NCBI GenBank assembly: GCA_003644925.1
Contig: QNDS01000006.1
Coordinates: 1 to 35,233, forward strand
DNA length: 35,233 nucleotides
Direction of reading: 5' to 3'
Source: Candidatus Fermentibacterota bacterium
GTDB taxonomy: Bacteria; Fermentibacterota; Fermentibacteria; Fermentibacterales; JCC-6
The position numbers were made by a program, and so were the translations under genes. The notes below the pieces were generated by a model, which was given only the letters and a program-made list of their open reading frames with translations, searched no databases and was not told the DNA's origin. Positions 1,041 to 29,077 of this stretch are shown here, piece after piece. Position 1 is the first letter of the stretch; each line of letters starts with the position of its first letter.

Positions 1041-3845
1041 TCAGGCGACACTTACTGATTTCCGGTACTTGATCCTTCTGCGGCTCTTCATCAGCTCGAA
1101 TACGCCCAGGAATATCAGCGCGGCGACAAGAATGAATATCCAGTCAAGAATTCCCGGACCGCTGAAATAGAGGAAGCCGCTTACGAAAGGCACGTATACT
1201 GCAGTCAGTACAAGGCCGATGGATCCCAGAACGGACAAGAGCAGTGTCCTGTTAGTGAAGAAATTCCTGTTGAAAATAGAAGTAAGCCTGTATCTCTGAG
1301 AGAGTACGTTTGCAAACTGGCAGAAAGCGATAGTGAGATACGCCAGTGTTGTCGCCCTCAGGTATGCAACAGGAAAAGGAATTGCCATATCAGCGGGAAA
1401 GACCACTCCTGTCCGGTACATACTGAGTGCGTAATTACCGAAAGCAAGTACTCCGATAAGTACTCCGAGGAATAACACTTCAAGGGATGTCTGTCTGTTC
1501 ATTATATGATCGCACTGCTTCCTCGGGGACATCCGCATAATCCCCTTCGCCGATGGGTCGAAGGTAAGGCACGTCAGGGGCATGACCTCGGCAAGCAGGT
1601 CAATCGCCAGAATCTGAAGGGCGAGTATGGGTATGGCCCAGTCACCCAGGGCAACAGCCGTAAGCCCGAGGATCACGATCACAAGCTCGGCTGCATTCGT
1701 GGTCATGGAAGCGAGGACGGTTTTCTTAAGATTGGCATATATGGTGCGGCCTTCTCTGACTGCCTCCACAAGAGTGGGGAAACTGTCGTCAAGAAGTATC
1801 AGTTCCGCGGCTTCCTTCGCGACATCGGTTCCTGTTATACCCATAGCGACACCGATATCTGCCCTTTTAAGCGCCGGAGCGTCGTTAACACCGTCGCCCG
1901 TTACAGCCACCACCTCGTCCTGATCCTCAAGAATATTGACGATCCTGAGCTTGTGAGCGGGGCTTACCCTGGAAAATATCACCGAATCATCCGTCATGAG
2001 AATCCGGGTGAGCTCTTCATCATCGATATCTTCCAACTGCTCGCCTGTATAAACAGCGGGCTCTCCCGATCTGCACAGGCCGATTTCCCTGCCAACGGCC
2101 TTAGCTGTTATTGAATGGGCGCCGGTCATGATAACTATTCGTATCCTGGCTTCATGGCATGCGGCTATCGCCTCTTTTACACCCTCTTTAGGTGGATCGG
2201 TCATTCCCGCGAGACCGAGGAAGATAACATCCTTCTCTATCTCCTCAATTACATAATCGCTTCCATCCAGCTCGAGGGGACGGAAAGCGATAGCAAGTAC
2301 TCTCAGAGCCTGGTTGGAAAATTCCTCGTTAAGGCTCCTGATCCGTTCCCGGTCCTCCTCGGTAATAGGTACGGCTTTCCCATTCCGGTAAATGTACTTC
2401 GAAATAGAGAGAACGCTGTCCGTCACGCCCTTCATGGCCAGCTCTACCCTGTCACCGAATTTTCTTACGGAACTCATCCTCTTTCTATCAGAATCGAAGG
2501 GGAACTCATGAAGCTCGGGATTCTCCTCGTCCTCTGTGGGACTTCTGGTTCCCAGTTTTGTGGACATGGCCACAAGAGCGGCTTCAGTAGGGTCTCCAAC
2601 GGGATACCAGCTTTTATGCTCTTCGTCAGGCGGGTGAATTTCGGCGTTGGATGCCATCGTTCCGGCATCCATCATTATCTCTATATACTCTATCTGTTCG
2701 CTGGTCAGTTCGTTGCCATCCGAATCCAGAATTCCCCCTTCAGGCTTGTATCCTGTTCCTGTCAGCCTGTATTCACTGCCGTCAAACCAGATCTTCGTTA
2801 CGGTCATTTCATTTTTCGTAAGAGTGCCGGTCTTGTCGGTGCATATCACGGTAGTAGAGCCGAGGGTTTCTATCGAAGGCAGATTCTTAACCACCGCCTG
2901 CAGATCTGCAAGCCTTTTACTGGCAGCTGTAAGGGCAACAGTAACCTGGGCAGGGAGTGCCTGGGGAACGGAGGCCACAGCGACACCGAGGGCGAGGATC
3001 ATACTAGTAATCAGCGGAAATCCCTGCCACAGAGCTACTGCAAAGAGACCTATACTGAGAACAACGACTATCAGGGTCAGCCATTTTGCCAGGATTCCAA
3101 GTTCCTTCTGCAAAGTGGATTTAACGGTGGCCGTTTCCTGGGTCATGCTTGCTATTCTGCCCATTTCAGTGGACATACCTGTTCTGACGACAACCCCGGT
3201 TGCACTACCCGTCGCAACCGTTGTACCCGTGAAGGCCATATTCTCCCGGTCGGATATTATGCATCTGTCAGCAATGGCGCTGGTACTCTTCTCCCTGGGC
3301 ATGGATTCACCTGTCAGTGAGAATTCCACCGTACGGAAATCGAAGCATTCAATAAGCCTCAAGTCCGCGGGAATTTTGTCTCCCGCTTCGATTTCAACTA
3401 TATCCCCGGGCACGAGCAGCCCTTGCGCCACCTCCGTAAGTACCCCGTCCACAAGCACTTTGGCGGGGGACTGGATAAGCTCCTTCAGCCGCTCCAGTAT
3501 CCTTCCGGCTTTGTACTCCTGAATGAAACCGATAATAGCGTTGATAATGACTATTATGAACATTATTGCGCCGTCACGGTAACTGCCGATGGCAATTGAA
3601 ACAATTCCGGCTGCTATAAGCACAAGAACGAGCAGCTCCCGGAACTGCTTCAGGAAAATCATCCATTTTGGAACGGTTACATCCGACACTATCTCGTTGG
3701 AACCGGTTCGGGAACGAATCTTCTCCGCAGCCTTCCTTGTTAACCCTTTTTCGGAAGACCCGAGGGCTTCAAGTGTCTCGCGACCGGTCAGACGGTAAAA
3801 CTCGGTATTCTCCGCGTATTCTGTTCCTGTGCTGTCATTCTGCAT
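1041..3845 (-). CDS. P2-type cation-transporting ATPase
   Basis: Full-length P-type ATPase of 934 residues. In order: cytosolic N-terminal cation-ATPase domain, membrane pair, actuator domain with TGES, membrane segments 3-4, the phosphorylation motif DKTGTLT with the phospho-acceptor at D337, nucleotide-binding domain, the hinge motif TGDGVNDAPALK, and C-terminal membrane helices. This architecture is the SERCA/PMCA/Na-K (P2) class, so it exports or exchanges a cation across the inner membrane. The membrane-4 signature reads VPQALP (residues 293-298) where Ca2+ pumps have PEGLP, and the membrane-6 site reads IDLLAE where SERCA has VNLVTD. The ion is therefore uncertain and Ca2+ should not be assumed. 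The Shine-Dalgarno is weak (GGAAG about 13 bases upstream). It is preceded by etfA in the same direction with a 66 bp gap. Confidence 0.93.
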   Translation of the reverse strand: MQNDSTGTEYAENTEFYRLTGRETLEALGSSEKGLTRKAAEKIRSRTGSNEIVSDVTVPKWMIFLKQFRELLVLVLIAAGIVSIAIGSYRDGAIMFIIVIINAIIGFIQEYKAGRILERLKELIQSPAKVLVDGVLTEVAQGLLVPGDIVEIEAGDKIPADLRLIECFDFRTVEFSLTGESMPREKSTSAIADRCIISDRENMAFTGTTVATGSATGVVVRTGMSTEMGRIASMTQETATVKSTLQKELGILAKWLTLIVVVLSIGLFAVALWQGFPLITSMILALGVAVASVPQALPAQVTVALTAASKRLADLQAVVKNLPSIETLGSTTVICTDKTGTLTKNEMTVTKIWFDGSEYRLTGTGYKPEGGILDSDGNELTSEQIEYIEIMMDAGTMASNAEIHPPDEEHKSWYPVGDPTEAALVAMSTKLGTRSPTEDEENPELHEFPFDSDRKRMSSVRKFGDRVELAMKGVTDSVLSISKYIYRNGKAVPITEEDRERIRSLNEEFSNQALRVLAIAFRPLELDGSDYVIEEIEKDVIFLGLAGMTDPPKEGVKEAIAACHEARIRIVIMTGAHSITAKAVGREIGLCRSGEPAVYTGEQLEDIDDEELTRILMTDDSVIFSRVSPAHKLRIVNILEDQDEVVAVTGDGVNDAPALKRADIGVAMGITGTDVAKEAAELILLDDSFPTLVEAVREGRTIYANLKKTVLASMTTNAAELVIVILGLTAVALGDWAIPILALQILAIDLLAEVMPLTCLTFDPSAKGIMRMSPRKQCDHIMNRQTSLEVLFLGVLIGVLAFGNYALSMYRTGVVFPADMAIPFPVAYLRATTLAYLTIAFCQFANVLSQRYRLTSIFNRNFFTNRTLLLSVLGSIGLVLTAVYVPFVSGFLYFSGPGILDWIFILVAALIFLGVFELMKSRRRIKYRKSVSVA

Positions 3846-9361: not shown

Positions 9362-10084
9362 TCAAGTTGTCAATCCACCATCTACCGGAAGTACTACTCC
9401 GGTAATATAAGAAGAAACATCATCAAGTAGAAAACGAACCGCATCAGCGATATTTTCAGGCTTCCCCATTCTCTTCATCGGCACTCTGCCTGCGTAATCT
9501 TCTCTGATCTTTTCGGAAAGCTCCCTGGTCATTTCCGTCTCGATAAAACCAGGAGCTACGGCATTTACACGTATATTCCTTGCAGCGAATTCCCGGGAGA
9601 GGGAGCGTGTAAGACCCAGAAGGCCGGCTTTTGTTGATACGTAATTCACCTGTCCGGGAGCTCCGAGCAAAGCTACGACAGAAGAAATATTGACTATGGA
9701 TCCTTCTTTCTGCCGCAGCATACCGCGGGAAAACGCCCTGCACATGAGGAAAGCGCCGGTAAGATTAACATTGAGGACAAGATCCCAGTCTTTTTTTTCC
9801 ATTCTCATGATAAGGCCATCGCGCGTAATGCCCGCGTTGTTCACGAGGCCGAACACCGGTCCCAGTTCATTCTCGATCCTGCCGGCAGTTTCCTGCACTG
9901 CATTCTCATCTGTAATATCAAGTACCCAGGGGCTGAATGAATCCCCGAGTTTATCGGATGCCGTCATGAGATCATCCTTCAAAACATCACAGCCAGCGAC
10001 TGACCAGCCGGATCTCACCAGCTTTTCAGAGATCGAATAACCGATACCCCTTGCTGCTCCGGTTACGACAGCAAGTCTCTTCAT
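9362..10084 (-). CDS. fabG: 3-oxoacyl-[acyl-carrier-protein] reductase
   Basis: 240-residue short-chain dehydrogenase that reduces 3-oxoacyl-ACP with NADPH. Visible motifs: the cofactor loop VTGAARGIGYS at the N-terminus, NNAGITRDGLIMRM, the catalytic Ser in NISSVVALLG, YVSTKAG with the Tyr and Lys, and VAPGFIETEMT. The C-terminus ends VLPVDGGLTT as expected. The frame is open further upstream, but the ATG at 10084 is preceded by a perfect AGGAGG 6 bases away and begins exactly at the Rossmann strand, so I use it. It sits 20 bp after fabH. Confidence 0.96.
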   Translation of the reverse strand: MKRLAVVTGAARGIGYSISEKLVRSGWSVAGCDVLKDDLMTASDKLGDSFSPWVLDITDENAVQETAGRIENELGPVFGLVNNAGITRDGLIMRMEKKDWDLVLNVNLTGAFLMCRAFSRGMLRQKEGSIVNISSVVALLGAPGQVNYVSTKAGLLGLTRSLSREFAARNIRVNAVAPGFIETEMTRELSEKIREDYAGRVPMKRMGKPENIADAVRFLLDDVSSYITGVVLPVDGGLTT

Positions 10085-10104
10085 AATAACCCTCCTACCT
10101 GTTC

Positions 10105-11088
10105 CTACCAGTGCAGTATCATTCCGCCCCATGTAAGCCCTGCGCCGAATGCTGCAAGAACAACTGTACTTGATTCCTTTATCGTGTTATCTCTTACAGC
10201 TTCATCAAGAGCCATGGGAATGGATGCAGCGGATGTATTACCGTATTTCTGGATATTGATGTATACCTGTTCAGGTTTGAGTTCAAGCGCCCTGGCGGTT
10301 GCATCGATTATTCTCAGGTTAGCCTGGTGGGATACAAGAAGATCAACATCTTTCTTCTCTGTTCCATCCATTTTAAGGGCTTCCATGCAAGAGTCATGCA
10401 TAGCCCGTACGGCGTGCTTGAAAATTCTTGAGCCGTTCATATGAATGGTATGCTCATTCTTCTCAACTGTTTCGAGAGAAGCCGGCTTTCTCGTTCCTCC
10501 AGCAGGCTGCAGCAGGTGTTCGCCCAGAGAGCCGTCACTTCCCCAGTGATACCCTCCCAGCCTCCCGCCGGGTCCCTCCGATGATACGGCAACCGCTCCT
10601 GCTCCGTCACCAAAAAGAATGCAGCTTGATCTGTCCGTCCAGTTGGTGATCTTGGTCAGGCAGTCGGAACCTACTACGATCATTCTGTCCATCATTCCCG
10701 ATTCAATGAATGCCTTTGCCTGTACAAGTCCGTAGATAAAGGCGGTACATCCCGCCTCGAAATCGTATGCAGGGATCTTTCCCATTCCGAGCCTGTCAGC
10801 CACCAGCGCTGCAGTTGAAGGAAAATAGTAATCCGGTGTGACGGTTCCGACAATAATGCCCTGAACATCCTCCGGCTTCCATCCCGCAACCTTCATGGCA
10901 TTTGTGACCGCCACGGTCACCAGATCGGAGGTTGCTGTGGAATCGTCGGCTTTCCGGCGTTCCTTGATGCCGGTCATCTTTGTGATCCACTCATCTGAAG
11001 TGTCGATTATTTTTTCAAGATCGGCATTTGTGATTATACCATCGGGGACCGCATGTCCTGTGCCAACAATAAAAGCGTTCCTGCTCAC
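10105..11088 (-). CDS. fabH: 3-oxoacyl-[acyl-carrier-protein] synthase III
   Basis: 327-residue KAS III, which starts fatty-acid synthesis by condensing an acyl-CoA with malonyl-ACP. The catalytic triad is visible: C114 in EAGCTAFIYG, His in SHQANLRI and Asn in YGNTSAAS. Length and C-terminus (AFGAGLTWGGMILHW) are typical. It uses a GTG start at 11088 with GGAG 5 bases upstream. It follows plsX by 13 bp, the standard plsX-fabH pairing. Confidence 0.97.
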   Translation of the reverse strand: MSRNAFIVGTGHAVPDGIITNADLEKIIDTSDEWITKMTGIKERRKADDSTATSDLVTVAVTNAMKVAGWKPEDVQGIIVGTVTPDYYFPSTAALVADRLGMGKIPAYDFEAGCTAFIYGLVQAKAFIESGMMDRMIVVGSDCLTKITNWTDRSSCILFGDGAGAVAVSSEGPGGRLGGYHWGSDGSLGEHLLQPAGGTRKPASLETVEKNEHTIHMNGSRIFKHAVRAMHDSCMEALKMDGTEKKDVDLLVSHQANLRIIDATARALELKPEQVYINIQKYGNTSAASIPMALDEAVRDNTIKESSTVVLAAFGAGLTWGGMILHW

Positions 11089-25180: not shown

Positions 25181-26116
25181 CTACCCGGAATCATCAAGGA
25201 TACCAAGCAGCATAACTGCTTTCCCTTTTCCTACCCTCTCACGCAGACCTGAACTGAGATCATCGAAGGATACTATTCTAAAACCCATTGATCTGTAAAG
25301 ATTCATTGCTCGATAGTTGGTTTCCTCAACGAGCAGCCCGATAGCCTGGGCACCTGCAAGTTCGGCACTGGATACGGCAAGTGATGTGAGACCTCTTCCA
25401 ACACCACCGCCCCGGAAAAGCGATCTGACCCTCATGCTGAACAGCCATGGGTTTTCACCGAACGGTGTGTCCTGCTCGAATCTTATGAATTGTGCTGATC
25501 CGATTCTTCTTCCGAACAGATATGCATTGAGCCAGTCCCAGTCGGCTTGCGTCCCGGGACTTCCGGAATGCTTTTCAGCTGGATGGATCTCGTATTTCAC
25601 CATCGGTCGAAGAATGGCTGAGCACAGTTTTCTGTAGAGCCTGAAACTCGATGCAAGTGAGAATACTCTGGCAGATGTTCTCCTTGGAAGGGATTTTAAT
25701 CGTGCGATCAATCGCGCAGATGCGGTTTGCTTCTGTCCTGAAGGCACGGAGTCGATCCGGATAGATTTACCATCCCTGACGGCAGATACTATTATTCCCA
25801 TAACCTGTTCAATGGATATTCGATAGTGATCCTCCGGATCAGAATCACTTGAAAGAAAGAGTTCCCTGTGGGAAGAGACCCTGCTGACATCCGAAACTCT
25901 GTGTACCGCAGCACGGTCATCCCCGGTTCTGTATAGAAGAATATCTCCCTGTTTTATTGAAAAGGGATCTTCGGGTACAGCTGTTAGAAGATCACCATCC
26001 CTCAGCGTTGGAAGCATACTTGAGCCCAAGGCTATGAATGAGATGGTTCCGCTTCGACTGAACACTTCGGCTGCCAGTTCCGCAAGATCGGAAGAGCCCA
26101 GATTCAGTTTCTGCAT
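25181..26116 (-). CDS. S26 signal-peptidase-like domain fused to GNAT acetyltransferase
   Basis: 311 residues with two recognisable parts. Residues 25-120 form an S24/S26-type peptidase core: GSSMLPTLRDGDLLT gives the catalytic Ser, and AAVHRVSD gives a His where bacterial leader peptidases have Lys, the Ser/His form of SipW/ER-type signal peptidases. No strong membrane segment is obvious. After a basic linker, residues about 205-305 form a GNAT domain with RGGGVGRGLTSLAV as acetyl-CoA loop and NYRAMNLYRSMGFRIV. It ends the peptide-modification cluster; its ATG overlaps the kinase gene by 13 bases. It may trim and/or acetylate the precursor peptide, which is inference. Peptidase activity is not certain since related domains may be inactive. 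Confidence 0.8.
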   Translation of the reverse strand: MQKLNLGSSDLAELAAEVFSRSGTISFIALGSSMLPTLRDGDLLTAVPEDPFSIKQGDILLYRTGDDRAAVHRVSDVSRVSSHRELFLSSDSDPEDHYRISIEQVMGIIVSAVRDGKSIRIDSVPSGQKQTASARLIARLKSLPRRTSARVFSLASSFRLYRKLCSAILRPMVKYEIHPAEKHSGSPGTQADWDWLNAYLFGRRIGSAQFIRFEQDTPFGENPWLFSMRVRSLFRGGGVGRGLTSLAVSSAELAGAQAIGLLVEETNYRAMNLYRSMGFRIVSFDDLSSGLRERVGKGKAVMLLGILDDSG

Positions 26117-26994
26117 CTGATGTAATCCACGATACGCTCATCGGGAACGAAGTGGAGTTCATGGAAAGGCACTGAATTTTCAAGCTTTCTGCAGAGGTCA
26201 AGGGAGAATTCCATCCCGGAACTGCTCCACAGCGGAAGGAAACTTCGCCGGAGCAGCATGGAAACAGCTTTTGCTCCGGCTGCTTTCGTTGAAACGTTAA
26301 CGTCACCGTGTCTCAGGAAATTGACCGATTCGAGAACAACTCCCTCAGCAGACACGTCGGACAGGTCTCCGTGCCAGGGTGTACCGTACATCAGGAATCC
26401 CCTTGCAGAAGGCCTCAGTATTATCCTGTCATCGTTCAGAACCTTTGCGCTGCCCCTCCACTGCATTGCGATGGTTGTTTTACCGTCGGTTGAATTGCCG
26501 GGGAACAGCAGGCCTCGTCCGTTATCACTGATGCCGCATGCGTGGATCATCAGTCCTTTTCCCATCGATAGCAGATAAACCATTAAAACCTCGGACAGAG
26601 GAAACTCGAGAGGGTCGTATTGAGACCGGTCTTCCGTTTCCGCATCAGACCCGGCGATACTCACTATTTCCCCGCTTGTGAGATCTCTGTTGAAGACTGC
26701 CACCCTGTAAGGAAGTGGACCGCCAACCGGAGATCTCAGCACCAGTGATACCGAATGGGGCGATTCGTAAAGGCGCCAGACAGTGCCCGAATCGAAGACA
26801 CTTTCTTCATCAGGAAGCGAGATATCGGAAATATCGCGGAATGAATCTCCCAGATTGATCCGAATATCCGGATTACGGTCTGAACAGAGAAAATCACGGT
26901 ACCGTGCAGACCGTAGCGATTGCAGGCTGCTTCCGCTGCCGCTTATGCAGAATGTGAAATCAGCAATTTTAAGTGTTACCTGATCTGCTGTCAT
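26104..26994 (-). CDS. HprK-related kinase
   Basis: About 296 residues. A P-loop of HPr-kinase type, FPGNSTDGKTT, lies around the middle, followed by VLNDDRIILRP, corresponding to the catalytic acidic segment of HPr kinase. Upstream is a divergent N-terminal domain of short strands. HprK-like proteins without the HPr regulatory role recur beside PqqD-like proteins in peptide-modification and exosortase loci; whether they phosphorylate a peptide or act as an ATP-dependent assembly factor is not settled. The frame stays open to ATG 27054, overlapping the precursor peptide gene by 22 bases, but ATG 26994 begins at the conserved-looking strand, so I prefer it. Neither start has a clear Shine-Dalgarno; coupling is likely. 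Confidence 0.78.
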   Translation of the reverse strand: MTADQVTLKIADFTFCISGSGSSLQSLRSARYRDFLCSDRNPDIRINLGDSFRDISDISLPDEESVFDSGTVWRLYESPHSVSLVLRSPVGGPLPYRVAVFNRDLTSGEIVSIAGSDAETEDRSQYDPLEFPLSEVLMVYLLSMGKGLMIHACGISDNGRGLLFPGNSTDGKTTIAMQWRGSAKVLNDDRIILRPSARGFLMYGTPWHGDLSDVSAEGVVLESVNFLRHGDVNVSTKAAGAKAVSMLLRRSFLPLWSSSGMEFSLDLCRKLENSVPFHELHFVPDERIVDYIRCRN

Positions 26995-27032
26995 TGTCAG
27001 AGTAATCCCGGATTGCTGGAGAACAAGGGAAG

Positions 27033-27200
27033 TCAGGTTCCCTTTATCTGGCATGGCCCCGGGCCGCCGGGCTGCTGGCAGGAACCTACCATGGGTCCCA
27101 TTGTGCCCATGCCCTTACAGAATGTCAGAACGGTTTCCTCCAGGGCAAGCACTACTCTCTCTATCCTTGGCTTTGAATACGGTCTCTTTTTCTGTTTCAT
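27033..27200 (-). CDS. Putative ribosomal precursor peptide, Cys/Gly-rich
   Basis: 55-residue open frame between the radical SAM gene and the HprK-like gene. ATG at 27200, GGAG 8 bases upstream, stop TGA at 27033. The N-terminal half is a charged leader-like segment (Lys/Arg-rich start with YSKPRIERVV, then LALEETVL), ending at F27. The C-terminal half (28-55) has cysteines at 28, 41 and 50, eight glycines, three Met spaced three apart (31, 34, 37) and PGGPGPC. This leader/core layout, the position next to a SPASM radical SAM enzyme and a PqqD-like protein, and the size suggest a RiPP precursor. The segment of type Y.KP...V.L..EE.VL..CK reminds me of other radical-SAM-linked small proteins, from memory only. 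Likely modifications are Cys thioether links; not proven. Confidence 0.75.
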   Translation of the reverse strand: MKQKKRPYSKPRIERVVLALEETVLTFCKGMGTMGPMVGSCQQPGGPGPCQIKGT

Positions 27201-27227
27201 TTCACAATCTCCACATTTACATATACT

Positions 27228-28373
27228 TCATCTTGCTGAGGCGCCAGGTAAATCAAGCATCTCCGCCCGCATGTGGGCGACCTTGCACAGGTACTCTACA
27301 GGTTCTTCGGAATCCCCGTGTTCAAGGTATCCCCATCCGGGGCACTGGCCGCACATGGATTTCAATGTGCATGTGCTGCAGGCAACGTCCCTGCTCCATT
27401 CCCCGGCTATTACATCCGGTAAGTATAACCTCCAACCGTCACTGAAAGTTCCCTTCCGAAGATCGAAGCTCTTTTCCCTGTACATCATGCATACACTCAG
27501 ATGCCCAGTACAGTCAATATGGAAGGTGCAGAGACCTGCGCCGCACTGGAAAATCCTGTCCGGATATTGAACTTGGTCAGGGTAACTCTCAACCAGATCG
27601 TGCCATACCCCCATGCGGCTCATATCCTGTTTATCCAGACTGATAGTCCTCTCGGGAGATAGTCTATAATCGAGCGGACCGCCATCTCCACCGAGTGTGC
27701 AGTTAAGCATGGTATCGAACCTGAACGGTACTCCCAGTTCTTCAGAAAGGGATTTCATTGCCGGGATTTCATCCACATTCAATGACATTGCCATGGTTTT
27801 AAGATGCAGTCTGATCCCTCTGCTGCGCAGACGATCTATTCCGTCCATACACTGCCTGAAGGATCCGGGAACACGGGTTATCGCCTCAAATGTATCTTCT
27901 GTTGAACCGTATATTGAAACTTCAACCAGGTATGGCGGCATGGATTCAAGGAGATCGGCAATATCTTCGGTAATAAGAGTCCCGTTCGTAAAGAGGATAG
28001 GTATTATTCCGCATCTCTTCACATAAGTGTAAAAGTCCCGGAAATCCGGTCTAAGGAGGGGTTCGCCACCTGTTATCAGAAGCCACAGGCACCCCTCTTC
28101 TGCCAGTTGATCGATGATTGATTCTAATTCGATGAGTGACAGATCCTGTTTCGTTTCACCCGTATTGGAGATGTAGCAGTGAACGCAGCCGAGATTGCAC
28201 CGGGATGTAATTTCAATACTGCCGGTAAGAGGAATTCTATCCGCAACCGCCCGCTCATATATCCTGCACCGAAAGGGCAGATACCCCGCATCAGGCAGTC
28301 CGCCGCACTCCAGATCAGACCTCCTGAAGAGTGCCGGAGGTGACCATTTCGCCAACGTACTCAACAAGATCAT
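27228..28373 (-). CDS. Radical SAM/SPASM peptide maturase
   Basis: Up to 381 residues. The SAM-binding iron-sulfur motif is CNLGCVHC (C59, C63, C66 counted from the first ATG), followed by LITGGEPLLRPDF. The C-terminal 110 residues form a SPASM domain with CGAGLC..., DCTGHLSVC..., CSTC, MCGQCPGWGY and a final CK, ligands for two auxiliary [4Fe-4S] clusters. Such enzymes install crosslinks or thioethers on ribosomal peptides. The first ATG (28373) lies inside the PqqD-like gene. A perfect AGGAGG sits 6 bases before an in-frame CTG at 28313, one base after the PqqD-like stop, so CTG may be the real start (361 residues). Its stop is 27 bases before the precursor ATG. Confidence 0.9.
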   Translation of the reverse strand: MILLSTLAKWSPPALFRRSDLECGGLPDAGYLPFRCRIYERAVADRIPLTGSIEITSRCNLGCVHCYISNTGETKQDLSLIELESIIDQLAEEGCLWLLITGGEPLLRPDFRDFYTYVKRCGIIPILFTNGTLITEDIADLLESMPPYLVEVSIYGSTEDTFEAITRVPGSFRQCMDGIDRLRSRGIRLHLKTMAMSLNVDEIPAMKSLSEELGVPFRFDTMLNCTLGGDGGPLDYRLSPERTISLDKQDMSRMGVWHDLVESYPDQVQYPDRIFQCGAGLCTFHIDCTGHLSVCMMYREKSFDLRKGTFSDGWRLYLPDVIAGEWSRDVACSTCTLKSMCGQCPGWGYLEHGDSEEPVEYLCKVAHMRAEMLDLPGASAR

Positions 28374-28599
28374 CCGCTACCGTTTTGTCATCAACATCAA
28401 ATTCCGCGGTTATCATGCGGATGATATCGGCAAGAGTCCGCTTCCCGTCTGCAAGCTCCCAGATGCGCGTCCCCGTCTCGTTCAAAACGTAAATACTGTC
28501 AGCTTCTCCCGCCTGATGATGGATCGGTACAAGAATAAACTCACCTGCGATCTCCCTGTAAACTATATCGGGATTACGCCTGTATACTTTTTCAAACAT
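28315..28599 (-). CDS. PqqD-like peptide recognition protein
   Basis: 94-residue PqqD family protein. The winged-helix core is recognisable in DSIYVLNETGTRIWELADGKRTLADIIRMI and the acidic VDDKTVADDLVEYV helix. PqqD-like domains bind the leader of a ribosomal peptide and deliver it to the modifying enzyme (RiPP recognition element). It immediately precedes the radical SAM gene, the usual pairing. GGAAGG lies 7 bases upstream of the ATG. Its last bases hold the AGGAGG that may serve the next gene. Confidence 0.9.
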   Translation of the reverse strand: MFEKVYRRNPDIVYREIAGEFILVPIHHQAGEADSIYVLNETGTRIWELADGKRTLADIIRMITAEFDVDDKTVADDLVEYVGEMVTSGTLQEV

Positions 28600-28642: not shown

Positions 28643-29077
28643 TCAATCTATCCTTTTTACTCTGCCCATAATTATAACAGAAATGCCGAAACCTGCCGCA
28701 AGGCCGGTAAACGATCTTACTGAGTTACTGCTTACATAGGATGAATGGTACTGCAGAAGCCCATCTAAGATAAGCGGCAGTAGCAGCGGGAAACCTGTCC
28801 AGAATCGTACACGGATCATCGGTCTGTACATCACCAGGATTCCGGCTGACAGACCCAGCCAGAAAGCGGTGCATCTTGCGCATAAACCCGATACTCCCCA
28901 TGGCAAAGCAATGCATCGAGAAGGCATTCTGTGACAGGATGCGGACAGTACGGGATCGATTGCGTTCTCCATGCTGCCCATGACCGGCCGCGCAATTGAA
29001 AACAGAAACATCAGGCAGGCAGGAACTCCAAGGAGAATGGCAAGCGCCAGCCTGCCCCGACGAAAGCTTCTTTTCAT
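28643..29077 (-). CDS. DUF2085 membrane protein
   Basis: 144-residue membrane protein with about four hydrophobic segments. The DUF2085 signature is visible: SASCHRMPSRCIAL followed by GLCARCTAFWLGL, giving a conserved His and several cysteines at the membrane edge. Function of the family is unknown. It is first in the leftward cluster with the PqqD, radical SAM and precursor genes (43 bp gap to PqqD), so it may be a membrane partner or exporter component, though it may equally be an unrelated neighbour. AGGGA precedes the ATG at 29077. The 5'-nucleotidase gene ends 28 bp upstream. Confidence 0.82.
   Translation of the reverse strand: MKRSFRRGRLALAILLGVPACLMFLFSIARPVMGSMENAIDPVLSASCHRMPSRCIALPWGVSGLCARCTAFWLGLSAGILVMYRPMIRVRFWTGFPLLLPLILDGLLQYHSSYVSSNSVRSFTGLAAGFGISVIIMGRVKRID

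Follow-up and report, generated by a model that had tools for sequence, protein, structure and literature searches.

A cysteine-rich precursor peptide of Fermentibacterota encoded beside a radical SAM maturase and an HprK-like kinase

Lasso peptide pathways like those of paeninodin and pseudomycoidin, with their K and N genes, use a PqqD-like B1 protein and precursors whose leaders carry a YxxPx[LI] motif (PMC10368454). The HprK-type kinases of lasso peptides phosphorylate the C-terminal Ser (PMC8498205), and a further enzyme of the pathway adds sugars to the peptide phosphate. These kinases act mostly on the C-terminal Ser, with Ser as the target of the best-studied ones, but BsfK acts on Ser3, so the target position is not fixed for all of them. 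SPASM radical SAM maturases are characteristic of other systems: they modify the Cys-rich cores of sactipeptides and ranthipeptides (e.g., SkfB), and act with a separate PqqD in the PQQ pathway (PqqE). Radical SAM enzymes are also catalogued as ScmE and ScmF, together with the HprK-like ScmC and the PqqD-like ScmD, in the SynChlorMet system of NCBIfam. Here, we describe a locus within a 35,233-nucleotide stretch of Fermentibacterota DNA ("the window") that, by analogy, would handle both peptide ends in the manner of a phosphorylated lasso pathway and place a sactipeptide-like enzyme between these steps.

The minus-strand operon encodes, in this order, a PqqD protein, a radical SAM/SPASM enzyme, a small precursor, an HprK-like kinase, and a Sec11-like peptidase fused to a GNAT domain (Table 1). 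With the lasso pathways it shares the YxxPx[LI]-type leader (Y8SKPRI13), the PqqD-like protein (PF05402), an HprK homologue with the same motif residues, and a C-terminal Ser/Thr, and related clusters additionally share NTP_transf_5 and an ABC exporter. Several leaders of the family score weakly with the paeninodin-family and rhodolasso precursor models (best E 0.026 and 0.008, not significant alone), consistent with this shared leader motif. However, the window operon has a SPASM radical SAM enzyme, a Sec11-like peptidase, and a Cys-rich core instead, and neither an Asn-synthetase-like cyclase nor a B2 protease was seen among the six scanned operon proteins; we rejected identity as a lasso peptide because the operon has no cyclase. 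Sactipeptides, ranthipeptides, and PQQ share the type of maturase, the former two also the Cys-rich core and the latter the separate PqqD, but the window cassette differs from them by its HprK-like kinase and the conserved C-terminal Ser/Thr. SynChlorMet is the nearest catalogued radical SAM system: it comprises the same protein types, the relatives with two radical SAM genes have the same gene set, and the ScmC model is matched by 21 of 25 kinases. Yet the window type has a single radical SAM enzyme and NCBIfam returns no precursor model for these peptides; membership was rejected because all scanned members fall far below the cut-offs (ScmC at most 50 of 125 bits, ScmE/F below 100 of 400). 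The leader strings, SynChlorMet, and the combination of radical SAM, RiPP, and HprK found no match in the open-licence literature, and a description elsewhere is possible.

Table 1. Coordinates of the precursor, its parts, its operon, and an adjoining gene type of related loci
Feature	Position	Strand	Basis or remark
RiPP precursor gene, 55 aa	27033..27200	-	homologues in same operon position; without Pfam/NCBIfam family
Shine-Dalgarno GGAG, 8 nt 5' of precursor ATG	27209..27212	-	direct reading
Leader, residues 1-27	27120..27200	-	boundary from family anchor, not a proven cut
Core, residues 28-55, Cys 28/41/50	27036..27119	-	family comparison
Y8-S-K-P11-R-I13, lasso-like YxxPx[LI] motif, proposed PqqD-binding site	27162..27179	-	family comparison; motif in lasso leaders (PMC10368454)
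C-terminal Thr55, proposed phosphorylation site	27036..27038	-	69/74 family members end in Ser/Thr; further set Ser in 33/37
PqqD-family RRE protein	28315..28599	-	PF05402, E 1.4e-15; conserved beside precursors
Radical SAM/SPASM maturase	27228..28373	-	PF04055; SPASM cysteines invariant; best PDB matches SkfB, PqqE
HprK-like kinase	26104..27054	-	motif HGSGKTTDDR intact; AlphaFold model with mean pLDDT 89.7, PEPCK/HprK fold
Sec11-type signal-peptidase-like domain fused to GNAT, candidate leader peptidase	25181..26116	-	S33, H72, D91; SEC11C, E 1.4e-11
Peptidase_C25 genes of related loci	L045:4399-8154, L046:6133-9420, L047:1-297, L048:1-4290, L049:1-1641, L050:2169-5510, L052:1-4620, L184:6117-11177, L185:10279-16092		

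The 55-codon frame is a real gene, far beyond chance. It is read from an ATG at 27200 to 27033 as MKQKKRPYSKPRIERVVLALEETVLTFCKGMGTMGPMVGSCQQPGGPGPCQIKGT, and direct reading confirmed what the original prediction had described, i.e., the frame itself, its own Shine-Dalgarno sequence, the three Cys residues, and the place between the radical SAM and HprK-like genes. The start lies 27 nt behind the stop of the radical SAM gene, and the 3' end is overlapped by the HprK-like ORF if the listed ATG at 27054 is taken as its start; the alignment of kinase homologues begins only near residue 21, so translation of this ORF may in fact start further downstream. When the radical SAM protein was searched against related genomes, maturases of 55% to 56% identity were retrieved from two members of the same genus (G001 and G006). 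Behind each of them lies a homologous small frame (49% to 60% identity) at the equivalent place in the operon, and G001 has a second copy behind the peptidase gene. Shine-Dalgarno sites are recognisable upstream of these homologues, though weaker for the second G001 copy (GGAAGG). Codon differences are concentrated in third positions, and dN/dS is well below 1 (0.29 to 0.37 in the two computable pairs, a rough figure because dS is near saturation), in line with the coding constraint expected from the original prediction. A profile built from five Fermentibacterota precursors gives E-values down to 4e-29, scored on the sequences that built it. The frame is short, and neither it nor its family members are covered by a Pfam or NCBIfam family, as might be expected of a chance open frame, but the syntenic homologues and the codon constraint made us reject this reading, which we regard as practically negligible.

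A single scan of a species-genome collection with the radical SAM alignment yielded 79 loci from Fermentibacterota, Chloroflexota, Desulfobacterota, Chlorobiota, Aminicenantes/Acidobacteria, Omnitrophota, WOR-3, KSB1, Planctomycetota, Methanomicrobiales, and others. The profile search of these loci revealed about 70 precursor frames beside related maturases in more than 10 phyla including methanogens, and together with 37 members of a further set they support the proposed reading as a RiPP precursor; one small frame (L113) is probably not a true family member. Within the host phylum, the profile convincingly matches 4 of 42 genomes, and in G008 and G024 the radical SAM gene is present at a contig end. 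In the phylum of the Desulfobotulus alkaliphilus locus L109, 19 of 395 sampled genomes carry a precursor.

The family combines a short gene beside modifying enzymes with a conserved leader and a variable Cys/Gly core, as is typical of RiPP precursors. Its leader consensus, K-x-[WY]-x-x-P-x-[LI]...EE-x-V-L-x-x-C-K, places W/Y at about -21, P at -18, L at -16, E at -6, V at -4, L at -3, and K at +1 of an anchor Cys that is found in 71/71 anchored precursors. The F27/C28 split proposed originally coincides with this fixed C-K anchor, a family landmark rather than a proven cut. Cores are rich in Gly, Cys, and Ser, and Cys, with three to five copies in 69 of these 71 precursors, is their most conserved residue. 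A comparison of leaders and cores set beforehand had the expected outcome, with leaders more alike than cores in all 12 loci that encode several precursors.

The most informative part of the locus is the combination of an HprK-like neighbour and a C-terminal Ser/Thr, which the original prediction had not connected. The C-terminus is strongly constrained: the last residue is Ser in 61 and Thr in 8 of 74 precursors (69 in total), compared to a background of 14% among neighbouring cassette proteins and 16% among random frames. For the window, G001, and G006 it is Thr. The further set, which was retrieved with a profile made from the first and is thus separate in sequence but not in method, shows a C-terminal Ser in 33 of 37 members; of the four exceptions, one carries Ser at the penultimate position and the other three are degraded or short. 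One precursor of L091 ends in Pro, and the precursor of L050 ends in His beside an HprK-like gene with an altered motif (E-D-Q, as also in L045). In a single genome (G059), the precursor of a cluster without HprK ends in NA while that of a cluster with HprK ends in GS. The kinase is apparently aimed at the last residue of the peptide.

The motif H-G-S-G-K-[ST]-T-D-D-R is intact in 70 of 81 kinase proteins including that of the window (allowing E for D and K for R), and is degraded or misaligned in a few proteins with a fused radical SAM domain (L068, L104, and L119). Lasso kinases need the same H/G/K/S/D/D residues. The window protein has both the H...GxxGxGKS...DD motif and the HprK/PEPCK fold of a lasso-type peptide kinase, with Thr189 in place of the middle P-loop Gly and Thr193 in place of the terminal Ser. 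PEPCK and HprK are related kinase folds. The sequence profile mostly retrieved short P-loop matches to ABC proteins and weak HprK matches from the PDB, and we therefore turned to fold comparison, in which the predicted structure matches PEPCK (E 1e-6) and HprK (E 1.7e-4) with modest TM-scores of 0.3 to 0.5.

Catalytic residues are likewise kept in the other enzymes. The maturase has the CxxxCxxC motif (C59/C63/C66) and seven SPASM cysteines (C277, C295, C332, C335, C341, C344, and C363), all invariant in four orthologues, and the Sec11-like protein, a candidate leader peptidase by its sequence, keeps its Ser, His, and Asp, with Cys in place of the Ser in 7 of 68 proteins. The GNAT fusion of the window can be aligned with the two closest relatives along most of the protein. 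A DUF2085 membrane protein gene (28643-29077) lies directly upstream of PqqD on the same strand; it was not found in related loci and is not counted in the cassette.

It seems probable that these genes form a dedicated RiPP cassette. PqqD, as a free-standing RRE, would bind the leader via Y-x-x-P-x-I and present it to the SPASM enzyme, which would install crosslinks, most likely thioethers from core cysteines; the HprK-like kinase would phosphorylate the C-terminal Ser/Thr, and the Sec11-type Ser-His-Asp peptidase would remove the leader. All of the chemistry, the sequence of these steps, the place of cleavage, and what the product does are inferred. The residue preceding C28 is not limited to small side chains across the family, which argues against a signal-peptidase-type cut at this point. 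In favour of this pathway, the same operon accompanies homologous precursors in G001, G006, and the two-rSAM genome G018. Against it count the Thr of the window (versus the Ser of the best-studied lasso kinases), the Ser3 target of BsfK, the His and Pro ends in L050 and L091, the lack of an exporter in the window operon, and that the C-terminal Ser/Thr could serve another partner.

Among the alternatives, the locus might encode a plain radical SAM RiPP of the sactipeptide or ranthipeptide kind, in which the peptide is no substrate of the HprK-like protein and the Ser/Thr end serves maturase recognition, export, or another function. The Cys-rich core, the sactipeptide enzyme SkfB as best PDB match of the maturase, and an HprK-like protein far below every curated cut-off (HprK_rel_B 31.5 of 200 bits) would fit, but we consider this unlikely given the largely intact kinase motif, the strict C-terminal Ser/Thr, the lasso precedent for this pairing of kinase type and terminal residue, and NTP_transf_5 in many related loci. 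A somewhat more serious, though still doubtful, option is that the radical chemistry does not involve cysteine (C-C or C-O bonds or epimerisation) and that the cysteines form disulphides or bind metal. PqqE-like SPASM enzymes with PqqD indeed also form C-C bonds (PMC8326336), yet the universal anchor Cys and the narrow range of Cys numbers speak against this.

The PqqD and PqqE-like pair, in an operon without exporter, could also suggest that the peptide is converted into a cofactor, in the way that PqqA gives rise to PQQ. However, core sequences diverge widely among precursors, also among those of a single locus, and many relatives have an exporter; this makes such a role very improbable, and a PQQ-like cofactor was rejected for its too variable core. 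With its variability and its many cysteines, the core is more in keeping with a natural product or a signal than with a cofactor.

The dedicated cassette is part of a widespread and uncatalogued peptide-tailoring system of bacteria and archaea in which radical SAM enzymes are paired with a kinase. PqqD is a neighbour in 73 loci, the HprK-like protein in 69, and the Sec11-like protein in 67 (counts that include the window and its close relatives), and most loci have two SPASM radical SAM genes. The radical SAM tree resolves three groups, i.e., the single-rSAM type including the window (SH-aLRT 96) and, for the two-rSAM type, one group of A enzymes (100) and one of B enzymes (99), apart from a few rows (L091, L102, and L110) whose A/B label, assigned by score, is wrong. 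Both cassette types occur in the host genus, with the two-rSAM form and a homologous precursor in G018 (L034). NTP_transf_5, to which we assign the sugar-adding enzyme of the lasso pathways, is encoded in 22 loci, and an ABC exporter also in many two-rSAM loci. Both are seen in the two-rSAM cassette of L109 (584-1762 and 6606-8426) and each in about 20 further loci, which suggests phosphoglycosylation and export. Whether all this amounts to a large, undescribed RiPP class of bacteria and methanogens is evenly balanced in our judgement; such a class would join lasso-type parts (leader and PqqD, C-terminal Ser kinase, sometimes nucleotidyltransferase) to SPASM crosslinking, with products phosphorylated and sometimes phosphoglycosylated at the C-terminal Ser/Thr. 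The family provides about 100 candidate substrates for maturases in more than 10 phyla without a Pfam or NCBIfam precursor model and makes a specific chemistry testable, in which a single peptide undergoes both radical crosslinking and C-terminal phosphorylation. These findings further suggest that the kinase/nucleotidyltransferase module known from lasso peptides can be adopted by different RiPP classes to tailor their C-termini.

In some loci, the HprK-like domain shares its protein with an additional radical SAM domain (L055:56-2050, L068:772-2835, L103:6020-8077, and others). The archaeal Methanolinea locus L103 harbours five diverse precursors around one cassette (2000-3328 and 9422-10123). 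In nine single-rSAM loci, a gingipain-type Peptidase_C25 gene that is absent from the window adjoins the cassette (Table 1), and its product may process the peptide or be its partner.
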